A stretch of DNA of 64,000 nt, from assembly GCA_017540175.1 (NCBI GenBank), contig JAFYBN010000036.1, positions 1 to 64,000 of the forward strand. The letters are read 5' to 3'. Source of the stretch: Clostridia bacterium. Its GTDB lineage: Bacteria > Bacillota > Clostridia > Oscillospirales > CAG-272. The translations under genes and the position numbers were made by a program. Below are positions 7,378-60,881 of the stretch, in pieces. Under the pieces are notes generated by a model that saw nothing but the letters and a program-made list of their open reading frames with translations, was not told the origin of the DNA and searched no databases. Numbering within the stretch: the stretch's first letter is position 1; each line of letters starts with the position of its first letter.

Positions 7378-7389
7378 GTCTCCGAACAA

Positions 7390-7492
7390 ACGCAGGGGTG
7401 CTGACGGCTGAGACGACCGACGGGACGCGGATGATCCGCGCCACGGAGGTCGAACCCTTCACCTGATCCGGGTAATACCGGCGTAGGGAGCT
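7390..7492 (+). ncRNA. TPP riboswitch (THI element)
   Basis: The element has the conserved GGGGTGC, CTGAGA (7408-7413), ACCCTT and ACCTGATCCGGGTAATACCG blocks and ends with GCGTAGGGA. These are the two sensor arms of the thiamine pyrophosphate aptamer. It lies between a strong promoter and a terminator hairpin upstream of thiT, so it is expected to switch off transcription when TPP is abundant. Confidence 0.95.
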
Positions 7493-7508
7493 ATAAAACA
7501 GCTTGAAT

Positions 7509-7539
7509 GACCGCGGACTTTGTTTGCCGCGGTCTTTTT
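7509..7539 (+). terminator. Riboswitch-controlled intrinsic terminator
   Basis: An 8-bp perfect stem GACCGCGG/CCGCGGTC (7509-7516, 7527-7534) is followed by a TCTTTTT run. It sits 16 bp after the TPP aptamer and 40 bp before the thiT start, the normal position for the expression platform. Its presence also argues against the upstream in-frame start at 7503. Confidence 0.85.
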
Positions 7540-7580
7540 GCGGGCGTTCGCAAATCAAATCCGGAAGGAAGGTACTCACA

Positions 7581-8207
7581 ATGAACGAAAAAAACAAAAA
7601 GGCGGCGGGGCGCGGCAGCGTCCGCGCGCTCGTCGAATGCGCGCTGATGGTCGCGCTGGCGATCGTTTTGGATTTCATTCCGATGCCGAAATGGCCGAAC
7701 GGAGGCTCCGTTTCCATCGCGGCGGTTCCGATCATTTTCATCTCCTACCGGCACGGGATTTTCTGGGGTTTGGGCTCCGGCGTCGTTTATTCCGCCGTGC
7801 AGATGATCATGGGCTTCTATCCTCCGCCGGCCGGGACCTTCCTCGGCTATGTGGGCGTGGTGCTGCTGGACTATGTGCTGGCATTCTCCGCGTTCGGTCT
7901 TGCCGATCTCTTCGCAAAGCCGTTCAGGAAGAATAAGCTTGCGGGCTACGGCGTCGGTGCGGTCGCCGTGAACGTGATCCGGTTCTTGTGCAGCTTCCTG
8001 TCCGGCATCATCATCTGGTCCTCCTATACGCCCGAGGGCATGGAGCCGTGGTGGTACTCCCTGACGTACAACGGCGGGTACATGCTTCCGAACGCGATCC
8101 TGTGCGCCGTTGTGATCGTGGTTTTGTGCATATTTGTGAATCCGAAAACGCTGAGACCGACGAAACTGAAGAATTCATCCGCCGAGAGTCCCTCGGACGG
8201 CAGATGA
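7581..8207 (+). CDS. thiT: Thiamine transporter S component, ECF type (ThiT)
   Basis: The 208-aa protein has six hydrophobic segments. It matches ThiT, the substrate-binding S subunit of the energy-coupling-factor transporter, including the aromatic-rich C-terminal region WWYSLTYNGGYMLPNA that contributes to thiamine binding in the family. It needs the shared EcfAA'T module, which is not in this window. The ATG at 7581 follows GGAAGG by about 9 bp; an earlier in-frame start at 7503 would run through the terminator. The TPP riboswitch directly upstream supports the assignment. Confidence 0.93.
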   Translation: MNEKNKKAAGRGSVRALVECALMVALAIVLDFIPMPKWPNGGSVSIAAVPIIFISYRHGIFWGLGSGVVYSAVQMIMGFYPPPAGTFLGYVGVVLLDYVLAFSAFGLADLFAKPFRKNKLAGYGVGAVAVNVIRFLCSFLSGIIIWSSYTPEGMEPWWYSLTYNGGYMLPNAILCAVVIVVLCIFVNPKTLRPTKLKNSSAESPSDGR

Positions 8208-20388: not shown

Positions 20389-20682
20389 TCCGGCACCGGA
20401 GATAGAATTTGTCTGCGTGATTCTTTTCTCAAGACAAAGAAATCCCGCGGTGCCGTTTCAAAATGAACGTATAGAAACCCTGCTTGCGCAAGGACGGTGC
20501 CCTCTCCGGCGGTTTGTGCTCCCAGCGTCCTGATCGCTGCGGCGGCGCGGAATGCGTCTCACGGCGGCGGAGGGAGGTCTGCATACCCCACGTCGGAAGT
20601 CCAGGCCCCTTTTTACTCTTAGTGGGTTTTTACGTTCACTTCTATCTCGAACACCGCAGGATGCGATGAACTCGTCGGGGGA
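20389..20682. other. Intergenic, no gene seen
   Basis: About 290 bp lie between the rnz leader repeat and the DUF1292 gene. No credible frame, RNA element or terminator is visible. No -10/-35 pair for rnz stands out. Confidence 0.4.
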
Positions 20683-57363: not shown

Positions 57364-57392
57364 TTGACATTCCGTCCGGGGAATGATATACT
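57364..57392 (+). promoter_or_regulatory. Promoter for the PurF-like/fhs unit
   Basis: TTGACA (57364-57369), a 17-bp spacer and TATACT (57387-57392) lie about 180 bp upstream of the PurF-like start. This leaves a long leader that contains the riboswitch candidate. Confidence 0.85.
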
Positions 57393-57419
57393 TAAGGAGC
57401 ATGAATGCCGTTCTTTGCT

Positions 57420-57515
57420 ACTGACGGACTGCGCGGAAACCCGCGCGTGGAGTCCCGGACATGCTCCGGGTCAACCACATGGAACAAAGAATGTATGCCG
57501 ACCGTCTGGGCGCGG
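57420..57515 (+). ncRNA. Candidate ZTP riboswitch (pfl motif)
   Basis: The leader has a P1-like helix GGACT (57426-57430)/AGTCC (57451-57455) enclosing a GC-rich GAAAC-loop hairpin and the junction GTGGAG. A second hairpin CCCGGA/CTCCGGG follows. After a variable linker comes GCCGACCGTCTGGGC (57497-57511), close to the pfl consensus 3' part GCCG...CCGCCUGGGC. The downstream genes (purF-like, fhs) are classical ZTP riboswitch targets. The match is by memory of the consensus, so a covariance search is needed. No obvious terminator separates it from the gene. Confidence 0.65.
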
Positions 57516-57575
57516 AACTTCGTTGATCCTCGGAAGCTCTGCACCCTTTTGTCTTTTTCGGGAAAGGATTTGAAC

Positions 57576-59000
57576 ATGGGCGGATTTTTTGGCGCGGTCA
57601 ACACGCGCGACGCGATCCACGACGTATTTTTCGGAACCGATTATCACTCCCATCTCGGCACCAAGCGCAGCGGCGTCGCGGCGTGGGATCCCGAGATCGG
57701 GCTTCAGCGGGACATTCACAACATCGAGAATTCCCCGTTTCGGACCAAGTTCGAGCACATCTGGGAAGAAATGCGGGGCACCGCCGCTATCGGCTGCATC
57801 AGCGATTACGATCCCCAGCCCCTTCTGATCCGCTCCCGCCTCGGCGCATACGCGATCTGCGTCGTCGGCATGGTCTCGAACGCACCCGAGCTCATTCGGG
57901 ACTATCTCTCGAAAACGGGAGACCACTTCGACGCGATGACCGGGGGCGGCGTCAACTCCACGGAGCTGGTCGCCGCGCTCATCAACCAGCGCACGGACTT
58001 CGTGGAAGGCATCCGCTTCGCGCAGGAGAAGATCGAGGGCTCCGCGTGCATCCTCATCCTGCGGGACGACGGCGTGATCGTCGCGGCGCGCGACCGGTAC
58101 GGGAGGCTGCCCATGCTCGTCGGACGCTCCGAGAGCGGATACTGCGTTTCGTTCGAGTCCTTCGCCTACGAAAAGCTCGGGTACGAATCCGTGCGCGAGC
58201 TCGGTCCCGGCGAGATCGTTTCGCTTTCCGCCGATAAAATGGAAGAGCTTTCGCCCCCCGGCGAGACCATGCGCATCTGCTCCTTCCTCTGGACCTATTA
58301 CGGCTATCCGAACTCCTCCTACGAGGGCGTGAACGTCGAGTGCATGCGCTACCGCAACGGCGAGATCCTCGCGGAGAACGACCGGAAGGCGGGCCTTGAC
58401 GGGGAGCTCGATTATGTGAGCGGCGTTCCCGATTCGGGCACGCCCCACGCCATCGGCTACGCGAACAATTCCCACGTTCCCTTCGCGCGCCCGTTCATCA
58501 AATACACCCCGACCTGGTCCCGCTCCTTCATGCCCACGAGGCAGAACGAGCGCAACACGGTCGCGAAAATGAAGCAGATCCCCGTCACCGAGCTCATCAA
58601 GGACAAGAATCTCCTGTTCGTGGACGACTCCATCGTCCGCGGGACCCAGCTCAAGGAGACGGTCGAATTCCTTTACGACAACGGCGCGAAATCGGTGCAC
58701 ATGCGCTCCGCGTGCCCGCCCATCCTCTACGCTTGCAAATATCTGAATTTCTCCCGCTCGAACAGCGAAATGGAGCTGATCGCCCGCAGGACCATCATGG
58801 AGCTTGAGGGCGAGGAGGGCTTTAAGCACATCGACGAGTACAGCGACGGCTCGACCGAGCGCGGCAAGAAGCTGCGCCGCCACATCGCCGAAAAGCTCAA
58901 TTTCGCCTCCCTCGAATTCCAGACCCTCGACGGCGTCGTCCGCGCCATCGGACTGCCGGAGTGCAAGCTCTGCACGTATTGCTGGAACGGGAAGGAATGA
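57576..59000 (+). CDS. Amidophosphoribosyltransferase-like protein lacking the catalytic Cys
   Basis: The 474-aa protein resembles PurF: an N-terminal Ntn-hydrolase-type glutaminase domain, then a type I phosphoribosyltransferase domain with the PRPP loop LLFVDDSIVRGTQ. PurF requires Cys as mature residue 1, usually in CGVFGI. Here the protein starts MGGFFGAVNTRD, with Gly in that place, so the standard glutaminase mechanism is absent. The C-terminal CKLCTYC resembles the Cys ligands of the Fe-S cluster in Bacillus PurF. The start at 57576 follows AAAGGAT; the upstream frame runs through the riboswitch. fhs follows 97 bp later. Confidence 0.8.
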   Translation: MGGFFGAVNTRDAIHDVFFGTDYHSHLGTKRSGVAAWDPEIGLQRDIHNIENSPFRTKFEHIWEEMRGTAAIGCISDYDPQPLLIRSRLGAYAICVVGMVSNAPELIRDYLSKTGDHFDAMTGGGVNSTELVAALINQRTDFVEGIRFAQEKIEGSACILILRDDGVIVAARDRYGRLPMLVGRSESGYCVSFESFAYEKLGYESVRELGPGEIVSLSADKMEELSPPGETMRICSFLWTYYGYPNSSYEGVNVECMRYRNGEILAENDRKAGLDGELDYVSGVPDSGTPHAIGYANNSHVPFARPFIKYTPTWSRSFMPTRQNERNTVAKMKQIPVTELIKDKNLLFVDDSIVRGTQLKETVEFLYDNGAKSVHMRSACPPILYACKYLNFSRSNSEMELIARRTIMELEGEEGFKHIDEYSDGSTERGKKLRRHIAEKLNFASLEFQTLDGVVRAIGLPECKLCTYCWNGKE

Positions 59001-59007
59001 CCCCTTG

Positions 59008-59029
59008 CTTTTATAACTCTTTATAAAAG
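59008..59029 (+). promoter_or_regulatory. AT-rich hairpin between the PurF-like gene and fhs
   Basis: A 9-bp perfect stem CTTTTATAA/TTATAAAAG lies 7 bp after the PurF-like stop. It resembles the AT-rich hairpin at 32964-32980. It lacks a T-run, so a processing or stability role is more likely than termination. Confidence 0.4.
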
Positions 59030-59097
59030 ACCGGACCCCCGCGGCGGGATCAAACACATATCAAATGAAAAAATAAGAACTCATCAAGGAGGCAAAA

Positions 59098-60774
59098 ATG
59101 GCATATCTTTCCGACATCGAGATCGCCCAGAGCTGTGAGCTGAGCCCCATCACGGAGATCGCGAAAAAGGCGCGCGTGGACGAAAAGTACCTCGAACCCT
59201 ACGGCAAAAACAAAGCGAAGATCGACCTCTCCCTCCTCGGCGAAACGAAGCGTGAAAACGGAAAGCTCGTCCTTGTGACGGCGATCACCCCCACTCCGGC
59301 GGGAGAGGGGAAGACCACCACCACCATCGGGCTGGCGGACGGTCTCAGAAAAATCGGAAAGGAATCCATCGTGGCGCTCCGCGAGCCCTCCCTCGGACCC
59401 GTCTTCGGGCTGAAGGGCGGCGCGGCGGGCGGCGGCTACGCGCAGGTCGTCCCGATGGAGGACATCAACCTCCACTTCACGGGCGATTTCCACGCCATCG
59501 GCGCGGCGAACAACCTTCTCGCCGCCATGCTGGACAACCACATTCAGCAGGGCAATTCCCTCGGCATCGACGTGAAGAAGATCACGTGGAAGCGCTGCGT
59601 GGACATGAACGACCGTCAGCTGAGAAACATCGTGGACGGGCTCGGCGGGCGCGCGAACGGCGTTCCCCGCGAGGACGGCTTCGACATCACGGTCGCGTCC
59701 GAGATCATGGCGGTGCTCTGCCTCGCGACCTCCGTGCGCGATCTGAAAGAGCGGCTTTCCCGCATCATTGTGGGCTATACCTATGACGACAAGCCCGTGA
59801 CGGCGGCGGACCTCAAGGCGGCGGGCGCGATGGCAGCCCTGCTCAAGGACGCTCTGAAACCCAATCTCGTGCAGACCCTCGAGGGGACGCCCGCGTTCGT
59901 GCACGGCGGTCCCTTCGCGAACATCGCCCACGGCTGCAACTCCGTCATGGCGACGAAGATGGCGCTGAAGCTGGGCGAATATACCGTCACCGAGGCGGGC
60001 TTCGGCGCGGACCTCGGCGCGGAGAAATTCCTCGACATCAAGTGCCGCATGGCGGGACTGACTCCCGACGCGGTGGTCATCGTCGCGACGGTTCGCGCGC
60101 TCAAGATGCACGGCGGCAAGGCGAAGACCGAGCTCGCCGGAGAGGACCTCGAAGCGCTCGAAAGAGGCATTCCGAATCTGCTCCGCCATGTCTCGAACAT
60201 CAAAAACGTGTATCACCTGCCCGCCGTGGTCGCCGTCAACCGCTTCCCGACGGATACGGACGCGGAGATCTCGTTCATCATCGAAAAATGCCGCGCGCTC
60301 GGCGTGAACACCGTTCTGTCCACGGTCTGGGCGGACGGCGGCGAGGGCGGCCGCGCGCTTGCCGAAGAGGTCGTGCGCCTCTGCGAGGGCGAAAAGGAGA
60401 CCTTCACCTTCTCCTATGAGGACGGCATGACGATCTCCGAGAAGATCGGGGCGCTCGTGACGAAGATCTACGGCGGCGCGGGCGTGAACATCCTCCCGGC
60501 GGCGAAGAAGCAGATCGAGCAGATCGAATCGCTCGGCTTCGGCTCCTGCCCCATCTGCGTGGCGAAGACGCAGTACTCCCTCAGCGACGATCCTCTGAAG
60601 CTCGGCGCGCCCGAAGGCTTCACCGTGACGGTGCGCGGCGCGAAGATCTGCGCGGGCGCGGGCTTCGTCGTGATTTACACCGGCGACATCCTCACGATGC
60701 CCGGACTTCCGAAGGTCCCCGCGGCGGAGAAGATCGACGTCGATGACAATGGACGGATCAGTGGGCTGTTCTGA
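59098..60774 (+). CDS. fhs: Formate-tetrahydrofolate ligase
   Basis: Fhs makes 10-formyl-tetrahydrofolate from formate, ATP and tetrahydrofolate, feeding purine synthesis and acetogenic one-carbon metabolism. The 558-aa length is standard. The P-loop [16 protein letters not shown] and the region [19 protein letters not shown] are diagnostic. AAGGAGG precedes the ATG. It shares the leader of the PurF-like gene, so the ZTP riboswitch candidate would raise 10-formyl-THF supply when ZTP accumulates. Confidence 0.97.
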
Positions 60775-60833
60775 TACCGAAAGGCGACAATACAAGCTCC
60801 GGCAAGACCCGAAGACGAACGTCACGAACAAAA

Positions 60834-60881
60834 GCCGCCGCATCTCACGCGCAAAAACGGAGAAATGCGGCGGCCCTTTTG
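60834..60881 (+). terminator. Intrinsic terminator of fhs
   Basis: A perfect 10-bp stem GCCGCCGCAT/ATGCGGCGGC (60834-60843, 60865-60874) is followed by CCTTTTG. Confidence 0.85.

Follow-up and report, generated by a model that had tools for sequence, protein, structure and literature searches.

A ZMP/ZTP riboswitch-type leader before fhs and a PurF paralog without its glutamine site, a probable ammonia-dependent phosphoribosylamine synthase

In a 64,000-nucleotide stretch of the genome of a Clostridia bacterium (GCA_017540175.1, contig JAFYBN010000036.1, positions 1–64,000, forward strand; hereafter the window), a unit at 57364..60881 places a leader of the ZMP/ZTP (5-aminoimidazole-4-carboxamide ribonucleotide and its triphosphate) riboswitch type before the gene for a PurF paralog, here termed PurFg, and before fhs, the gene for formate–tetrahydrofolate ligase. 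As judged from sequence, this unit is probably a ZMP/ZTP ON switch set over an ammonia-dependent phosphoribosylamine synthase and a one-carbon supply enzyme. In the textbook view, purine synthesis begins with PurF and depends on glutamine at this step. PurFg and its relatives have lost the glutamine site, retain the phosphoribosyl pyrophosphate (PRPP) loop and represent the only PurF detected in 32 of the 148 genomes sampled from the order, so that an ammonia-dependent phosphoribosylamine synthase appears to be the simplest reading. An earlier, sequence-only reading of the locus had left the choice between free ammonia, another amine and a regulatory role; the 32 genomes, 31 of which encode PurD, favour free ammonia. 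The unit comprises the following features.

57364..57392, forward strand: sigma-70-type promoter TTGACA-17-TATACT (consensus scan, 11 of 12 matches, TG preceding the second hexamer)
57407..57518, forward strand: ZMP/ZTP riboswitch aptamer (RF01750), covariance match of 36.5 bits (gathering score 39)
57508..57558, forward strand: intrinsic terminator, predicted fold (stem 57508–57546, T-run 57547–57558)
57561..57568, forward strand: ribosome-binding-site-like GGAAAGGA, read directly, preceding ATG 57576
57576..59000, forward strand: PurFg, a PurF paralog of 474 aa with an MGGFFG start (sequence comparison)
59098..60774, forward strand: fhs, formate–tetrahydrofolate ligase, an open reading frame (ORF) of 558 aa named by eye from its sequence
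60834..60881, forward strand: terminator-like hairpin and T-run closing the unit, read directly

The start of PurFg was assigned to ATG 57576, which lies 58 bp beyond the aptamer end at 57518 and has GGAAAGGA upstream at 57561; the protein then begins with MGGFFG. The start of the longest ORF, ATG 57405, was rejected, as it lies within the aptamer region and would add 57 residues across the aptamer. Against the purF family model TIGR01134, PurFg scores 174 bits and does not reach the curated cut-off of 350, and the nearest solved structure is PurF 1ao0 (E 5.8e-39); we take 1ao0 and 1gph to be B. subtilis PurF. PurFg resembles canonical PurF, the glutamine PRPP amidotransferase of TIGR01134, in its two-domain layout, PRPP loop and four cluster-type cysteines but lacks Cys1, the Arg73 loop, Asn101 and Asp127. 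The replacement of Cys1 by Gly and the retention of the PRPP loop (VDDSIVRGT in the window protein) and of the cysteines are as the sequence-only reading had them; what it understated was the extent of the change at Cys1, because all aligned relatives have lost the entire glutamine site.

This became apparent in an alignment of 60 PurFg proteins (59 from 80 PurFg loci, the best 80 of at least 596, plus the window protein) with 69 canonical PurF proteins of the same order. The latter were obtained from 78 loci, nine others of which were not extracted, by a pattern that required an N-terminal Cys, so that Cys1 is present in 69/69 by construction, which does not apply to the other residues. At the Cys1 position PurFg has Gly in 59 proteins and Ser in one; Arg75 and Tyr76, presumably Arg73 and Tyr74 of E. 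coli PurF, are deleted in 60/60; the N104 position is occupied by V, I, T or L in all 60, never by Asn; and the D129 position holds S, T, A, N, Q, M or G (N in five), never Asp. We take the lost positions, including Arg73, Asn101 and Asp127, to be the glutamine-binding and oxyanion residues defined in E. coli work. Each PRPP-loop residue is retained in 59–60 of the 60 proteins, and C246, C392, C441 and C444 (numbering of this genome's own PurF), which we assume to correspond to the cluster cysteines of B. subtilis, in 60/60. A pattern that permitted Cys located the start of 134 distinct PurFg proteins, among which the first mature residue is Gly in 126, Ser in 8 and Cys in none.

Three motifs of PurFg have no counterpart in canonical PurF: DYHSHLGT, KYTPTW.R and a Gln after VRGT, the first two of which doubled as search patterns and are therefore constant in part by design. 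When 71 PurFg and 40 canonical sequences (111 rows) were placed in a tree, PurFg was separated from canonical PurF by a single long branch with a support of 100. Because of this branch, PurFg appears to be an old family that has lost the whole glutamine site rather than a recently broken purF, and a recent loss of Cys1 was rejected. A second PurFg subclade, 53–57% identical to the window protein, is found in the same genus, family and order (L030–L034, L140, L144, L156). No purM adjoins PurFg at these loci, for which the stretches of L030–L034 cover at most 1.5 kb per side; the proteins of L140, L144 and L156 begin with MSGFFG, with Ser replacing Gly.

The sequence-only reading had raised the question of whether a normal purF exists elsewhere in the genome, and one was found at G000:C125:50428–51777 with 493 bits (cut-off 350). 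In a sample of 249 genomes of the phylum, PurFg was detected in 15 (E 1e-90 or better) and canonical PurF over the cut-off in 244. The sample of the order consists of 148 genomes with a requested completeness of at least 95% and includes the genome of the window (93.5%): PurFg is present in 84 and canonical PurF in 111, with both in 52 genomes, PurFg only in 32, canonical PurF only in 59 and neither in 5. The two proteins tend to avoid each other (Fisher p 1.8e-5, uncorrected for relatedness). None of the 32 PurFg-only genomes has a TIGR01134 match over the cut-off, the best match being PurFg itself. Ten of them have a second match of 87–119 bits over the glutaminase part; on reading, all ten proteins are GlmS-like (MCGI.G...AKSVTVE), and a hidden purF was rejected on this reading of the ten, the weaker matches being of 35–47 bits in ORFs of 372–660 aa. 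PurD uses phosphoribosylamine, and purD is found over the cut-off in 31 of the 32. An artefact of incomplete genomes is unlikely, given that the 32 are at least 95% complete and span 25 genera, although a single absence may be an assembly gap.

PurFg members with 48.5–54% identity occur in plasmid-collection records of Bacteroides finegoldii, Parabacteroides distasonis, Phocaeicola massiliensis and Peptoclostridium acidaminophilum. These proteins of Bacteroidales and Peptoclostridium, some of them labelled amidophosphoribosyltransferase and one a hypothetical protein, share with PurFg the MGGFFG or MGGLFG start, KYTPTW.R and DDSIVRGTQ as well as the lack of RYAT, HNG and SDTE; they differ in having pepT and gcvT as neighbours. 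In a control genome, that of Bacteroides ihuae, a purF-family match was seen at looser limits and is absent from the 1e-70 list. Bacteroides may thus also be without a canonical PurF over the cut-off.

In the best 80 of the at least 596 PurFg loci, 75 have purM no more than 3 kb downstream of PurFg, so that PurFg occupies the usual slot of purF; a canonical PurF gene is found in the same locus in 9 of these 80. Neighbourhoods were examined in 20 of the 32 PurFg-only genomes, and purine genes adjoin PurFg in 13. The fhs gene downstream of the leader, to which the sequence-only reading had pointed, was identified by eye in the 558-aa ORF, and a match to it follows PurFg at five further loci, all of the same genus (L012, L013, L017, L018 and L025); at L014–L016 no fhs match was found within the stretch covered. 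Only one of the best 80 loci has fhs (L112, the same record as L025), and the ZTP-PurFg-fhs arrangement is local. A ZTP match lies within 4 kb upstream of 25 of the 84 PurFg genes of the order, including 18 of the 32 PurFg-only ones, compared with canonical purF in 9 of 111 genomes (one genome, G285, is counted on both sides). Five further PurFg genes have a ZTP match slightly downstream. This search of the order used stricter filters, which lose weak matches.

The location of canonical purF tends to change with the presence of PurFg. In the genome of the window, canonical purF (G000:C125, L010) adjoins genes for glutamate synthase parts, glnA, amt, asnB, nadE, carA and carB; here and below, names of nitrogen-cluster and purine genes were assigned by reading the sequence. 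Where PurFg is present and the genes are apart (37 of the 38 non-adjacent genomes with both, the genome of the window being left out), 2/37 have canonical purF within a purine operon and 25/37 have it near nitrogen genes. Where PurFg is absent, the values are 28/40 and 11/40, based on 40 of the 59 canonical-only genomes; the other 19, of which 10 carry more than one copy and 9 a single copy, were left out. Nearness to nitrogen genes was defined as a tblastn match to this genome's own GltA1, GltA2, GlnA, Amt, AsnB, NadE, CarA or CarB within about 8.5 kb; some of these calls rest on a single gene, namely AsnB (L181, L200), NadE (L184), one Glt part (L179) or GlnA (L236), and some contigs end early. 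Counted per genus, purine-operon placement is 2/29 with PurFg versus 20/29 without (p 1.5e-6), and nitrogen-gene placement 21/29 versus 9/29 (p 0.0035). The purine-operon contrast is also seen within families, with 0/3 versus 4/4 in family f122 and 0/7 versus 3/3 in family f126.

The leader is a putative ZTP/ZMP riboswitch, as the sequence-only reading had proposed. RF01750 aligns over its whole model (positions 1–86) with window positions 57407–57518 (+) at 36.5 bits, with an E of 7.3e-4 in a 2-kb search in which the next-best RNA family had an E of 0.38; a scan of the window at gathering level does not list RF01750, which is below 39, and returned only a TPP riboswitch and 6S RNA. In the whole genome, RF01750 was found at two places, the window site and G000:C60:15814–15906 (57.5 bits), the latter preceding purE-purM-purN-purO-like-purH-like-purD. 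Seven same-genus relatives were tested, chosen because they carry the 3' motif near the gene; all have an RF01750 match at the equivalent position with 35.9–54.5 bits, and four of them exceed the gathering score (39.3–54.5). The motif occurs at a distance from the gene in 14 further loci, of which L091 was omitted, and 13/13 exceed the gathering score. All eight leaders of the genus share an identical core block GCCGACCGTCTGGGC, and the conserved CCGNCUGGGC block of RF01750, present in the full-length alignment, is likewise the same in 8/8.

The 5' arm of the terminator is the 3' GGGC of the aptamer (57508–57511), and a hairpin sharing this GGGC followed by a T-run is found in 8/8 leaders. The fold of the window terminator has a predicted energy of -17.5 kcal/mol; a simple consensus scan of the window with a loop limit of 8 does not list the terminator at 57508–57558. 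In the ZTP class, as described in two papers (PMC2864571, PMC7337938), aptamer and terminator are mutually exclusive, the terminator overlaps the 3' end of the aptamer, and ligand raises expression. The window leader resembles this class in its whole-model match, in the kinds of genes under its control (purine synthesis, fhs) and in its overlapping terminator and departs from it in scoring slightly below the gathering score and in standing directly before a PurF without Cys1. Because the overlap is that of the known class, the unit is probably switched ON when ZMP/ZTP is high. The promoter, a strong one, was the one site observed in its consensus scan, whereas shuffles gave 0.6 on average. Between PurFg and fhs, the consensus scan showed no forward terminator-like site; it listed one within the PurFg gene at 58202.

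In the mechanism that we favour, a shortage of 10-formyltetrahydrofolate would cause ZMP/ZTP to accumulate and bind the aptamer, in which P3 and the pseudoknot would then stay folded and block the overlapping terminator, allowing PurFg and fhs to be transcribed. Fhs would convert formate to 10-formyltetrahydrofolate, and PurFg would use free ammonia in place of glutamine, its phosphoribosyltransferase domain joining PRPP and NH3 and its N-terminal nucleophile (Ntn) domain, no longer able to split glutamine, serving as a scaffold. The glutamine-using PurF encoded in the nitrogen-assimilation cluster of the same genome would probably serve under ammonia-poor conditions. Gut and rumen contents are rich in ammonia, and gut or rumen is the source named in many record titles among the best 80 of the at least 596 PurFg loci. 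With less assurance, we lean towards a broader picture in which an ammonia-using PurF is widespread in gut and other anaerobes and has entirely displaced the glutamine-using PurF in many lineages; where both are present, nitrogen supply would decide which of them does the work, with the ammonia-using form encoded in the purine operon, in many cases under ZTP control, and the glutamine-using form in a nitrogen-assimilation cluster. In E. coli, PurF that lacks Cys1 is unable to use glutamine and retains activity with ammonia (PMC3261824, citing Mei and Zalkin 1989).

Several observations weigh against this interpretation, and some of them suit other explanations. Canonical PurF coexists with PurFg in 52 of the 84 PurFg genomes of the order, where PurFg could be accessory, and in all 15 of the phylum sample (E 8.5e-148 or better); moreover, 14 of the 52 have the two genes within 5 kb of each other. 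These figures would fit a pseudoenzyme that binds to canonical PurF or regulates it, with PRPP as a signal and no phosphoribosylamine made, but such a role is unlikely in view of the 32 genomes with PurFg and no canonical PurF found, 31 of them with purD, and of the PRPP loop and cluster-type cysteines kept in 59–60 of 60 proteins. The division by nitrogen supply is blurred by the 11 of 40 canonical-only genomes that have purF near nitrogen genes, and by two families that break the nitrogen pattern (nitrogen neighbours in 9/10 with PurFg versus 4/5 without in f125, and in 2/7 versus 2/3 in f14). If the adjacent pairs are treated as purine-operon copies, the contrast weakens to 16/51 versus 28/40 (p 3e-4). 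In addition, PurFg is without purine-gene neighbours at 7 of the 20 PurFg-only loci examined. Its PRPP domain has a KYTPTW.R loop that is unlike canonical PurF, and another product is possible; together with DYHSHLGT and the Gln after VRGT, this loop could mark a phosphoribosyltransferase that acts on a different amine or base, such as a ZMP-linked one, and is PurF-like in appearance only. We consider this quite improbable, as PurFg mostly stands just before purM, in the usual slot of purF, and is the sole copy in pathway-bearing genomes. Finally, as reported in PMC3485032, phosphoribosylamine forms non-enzymatically from ribose 5-phosphate and ammonia and can be made by TrpD, so that a missing canonical PurF alone is no proof of PurFg as its source; sole occurrence with purD appears to be strong but not final evidence for phosphoribosylamine synthesis by PurFg.

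It is also conceivable, if doubtful, that PurFg makes phosphoribosylamine from ammonia delivered by a separate glutaminase or another ammonia-releasing partner and not from the free pool. In the two Bacteroidales records of Bacteroides finegoldii and Parabacteroides distasonis (L245, L246), the genes after PurFg are pepT and gcvT, and in Peptoclostridium acidaminophilum (L244) pepT also comes after it; the reaction of GcvT (T-protein) yields ammonia and a one-carbon unit. However, no pepT or gcvT match was found in the loci up to L166 (144 with PurFg, 138 distinct proteins), many of which cover only 1.5 kb per side and for which no systematic search for neighbouring glutaminases was made; a pepT/gcvT partner was rejected for Clostridia on this basis. 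Doubts about the leader are of another kind. The terminator fold is matched by 15/200 shuffles (4/200 for a shorter stretch). The 36.5 bits of the leader are below the gathering score, the genus leaders have long and variable inserts, and the lowest-energy fold of the isolated leader, stabler than all but 4/200 shuffles, is not the ZTP architecture. These last three features might be expected of a relic, yet with GCCGACCGTCTGGGC identical and the terminator kept in 8/8 leaders, and with four of the seven relatives at 39.3–54.5 bits, a leader that no longer works as a ZTP riboswitch is very improbable.

The closest precedent for the proposed function is PurF' of Crenarchaeota, for which Brown et al. 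2011 (PMC3261824) described a Cys1-less additional copy accompanying PurF and proposed, without a test, the function of an ammonia-dependent PRPP aminotransferase. Like the PurFg clade, it is a PurF paralog without the N-terminal Cys encoded near purine genes (the neighbour in the window being fhs), but it is reported as a second copy beside canonical PurF; the comparison is by published description. A PurF without Cys1 and the suggestion of ammonia use are therefore already known, from that paper, in Crenarchaeota. What appears to be new is a bacterial clade that has lost the site as a whole and can occur alone, the exchange of gene slots, the association of canonical purF with nitrogen genes, and direct ZTP control; the open-access literature, to which the search was confined (subscription papers and preprints being outside its scope), yielded no account of a bacterial PurF clade without Cys1.

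If the ammonia-dependent function holds, many gut anaerobes would couple purine synthesis to ambient ammonia, glutamine analogues would miss the PurF step in them, and the label amidophosphoribosyltransferase on such proteins would be wrong as to the nitrogen donor. The PurFg clade also offers a direct test of the role of ammonia proposed for crenarchaeal PurF'.

Two other RNA elements were detected in the window. A thiamine pyrophosphate (TPP) riboswitch at 7384–7506 (+), with 58.6 bits, is followed by a 234-aa membrane-protein-like ORF (7503–8207) that by eye resembles a thiamine-transporter component. A 6S RNA is located at 20438–20665 (-), with 48.4 bits (gathering score 46.4).

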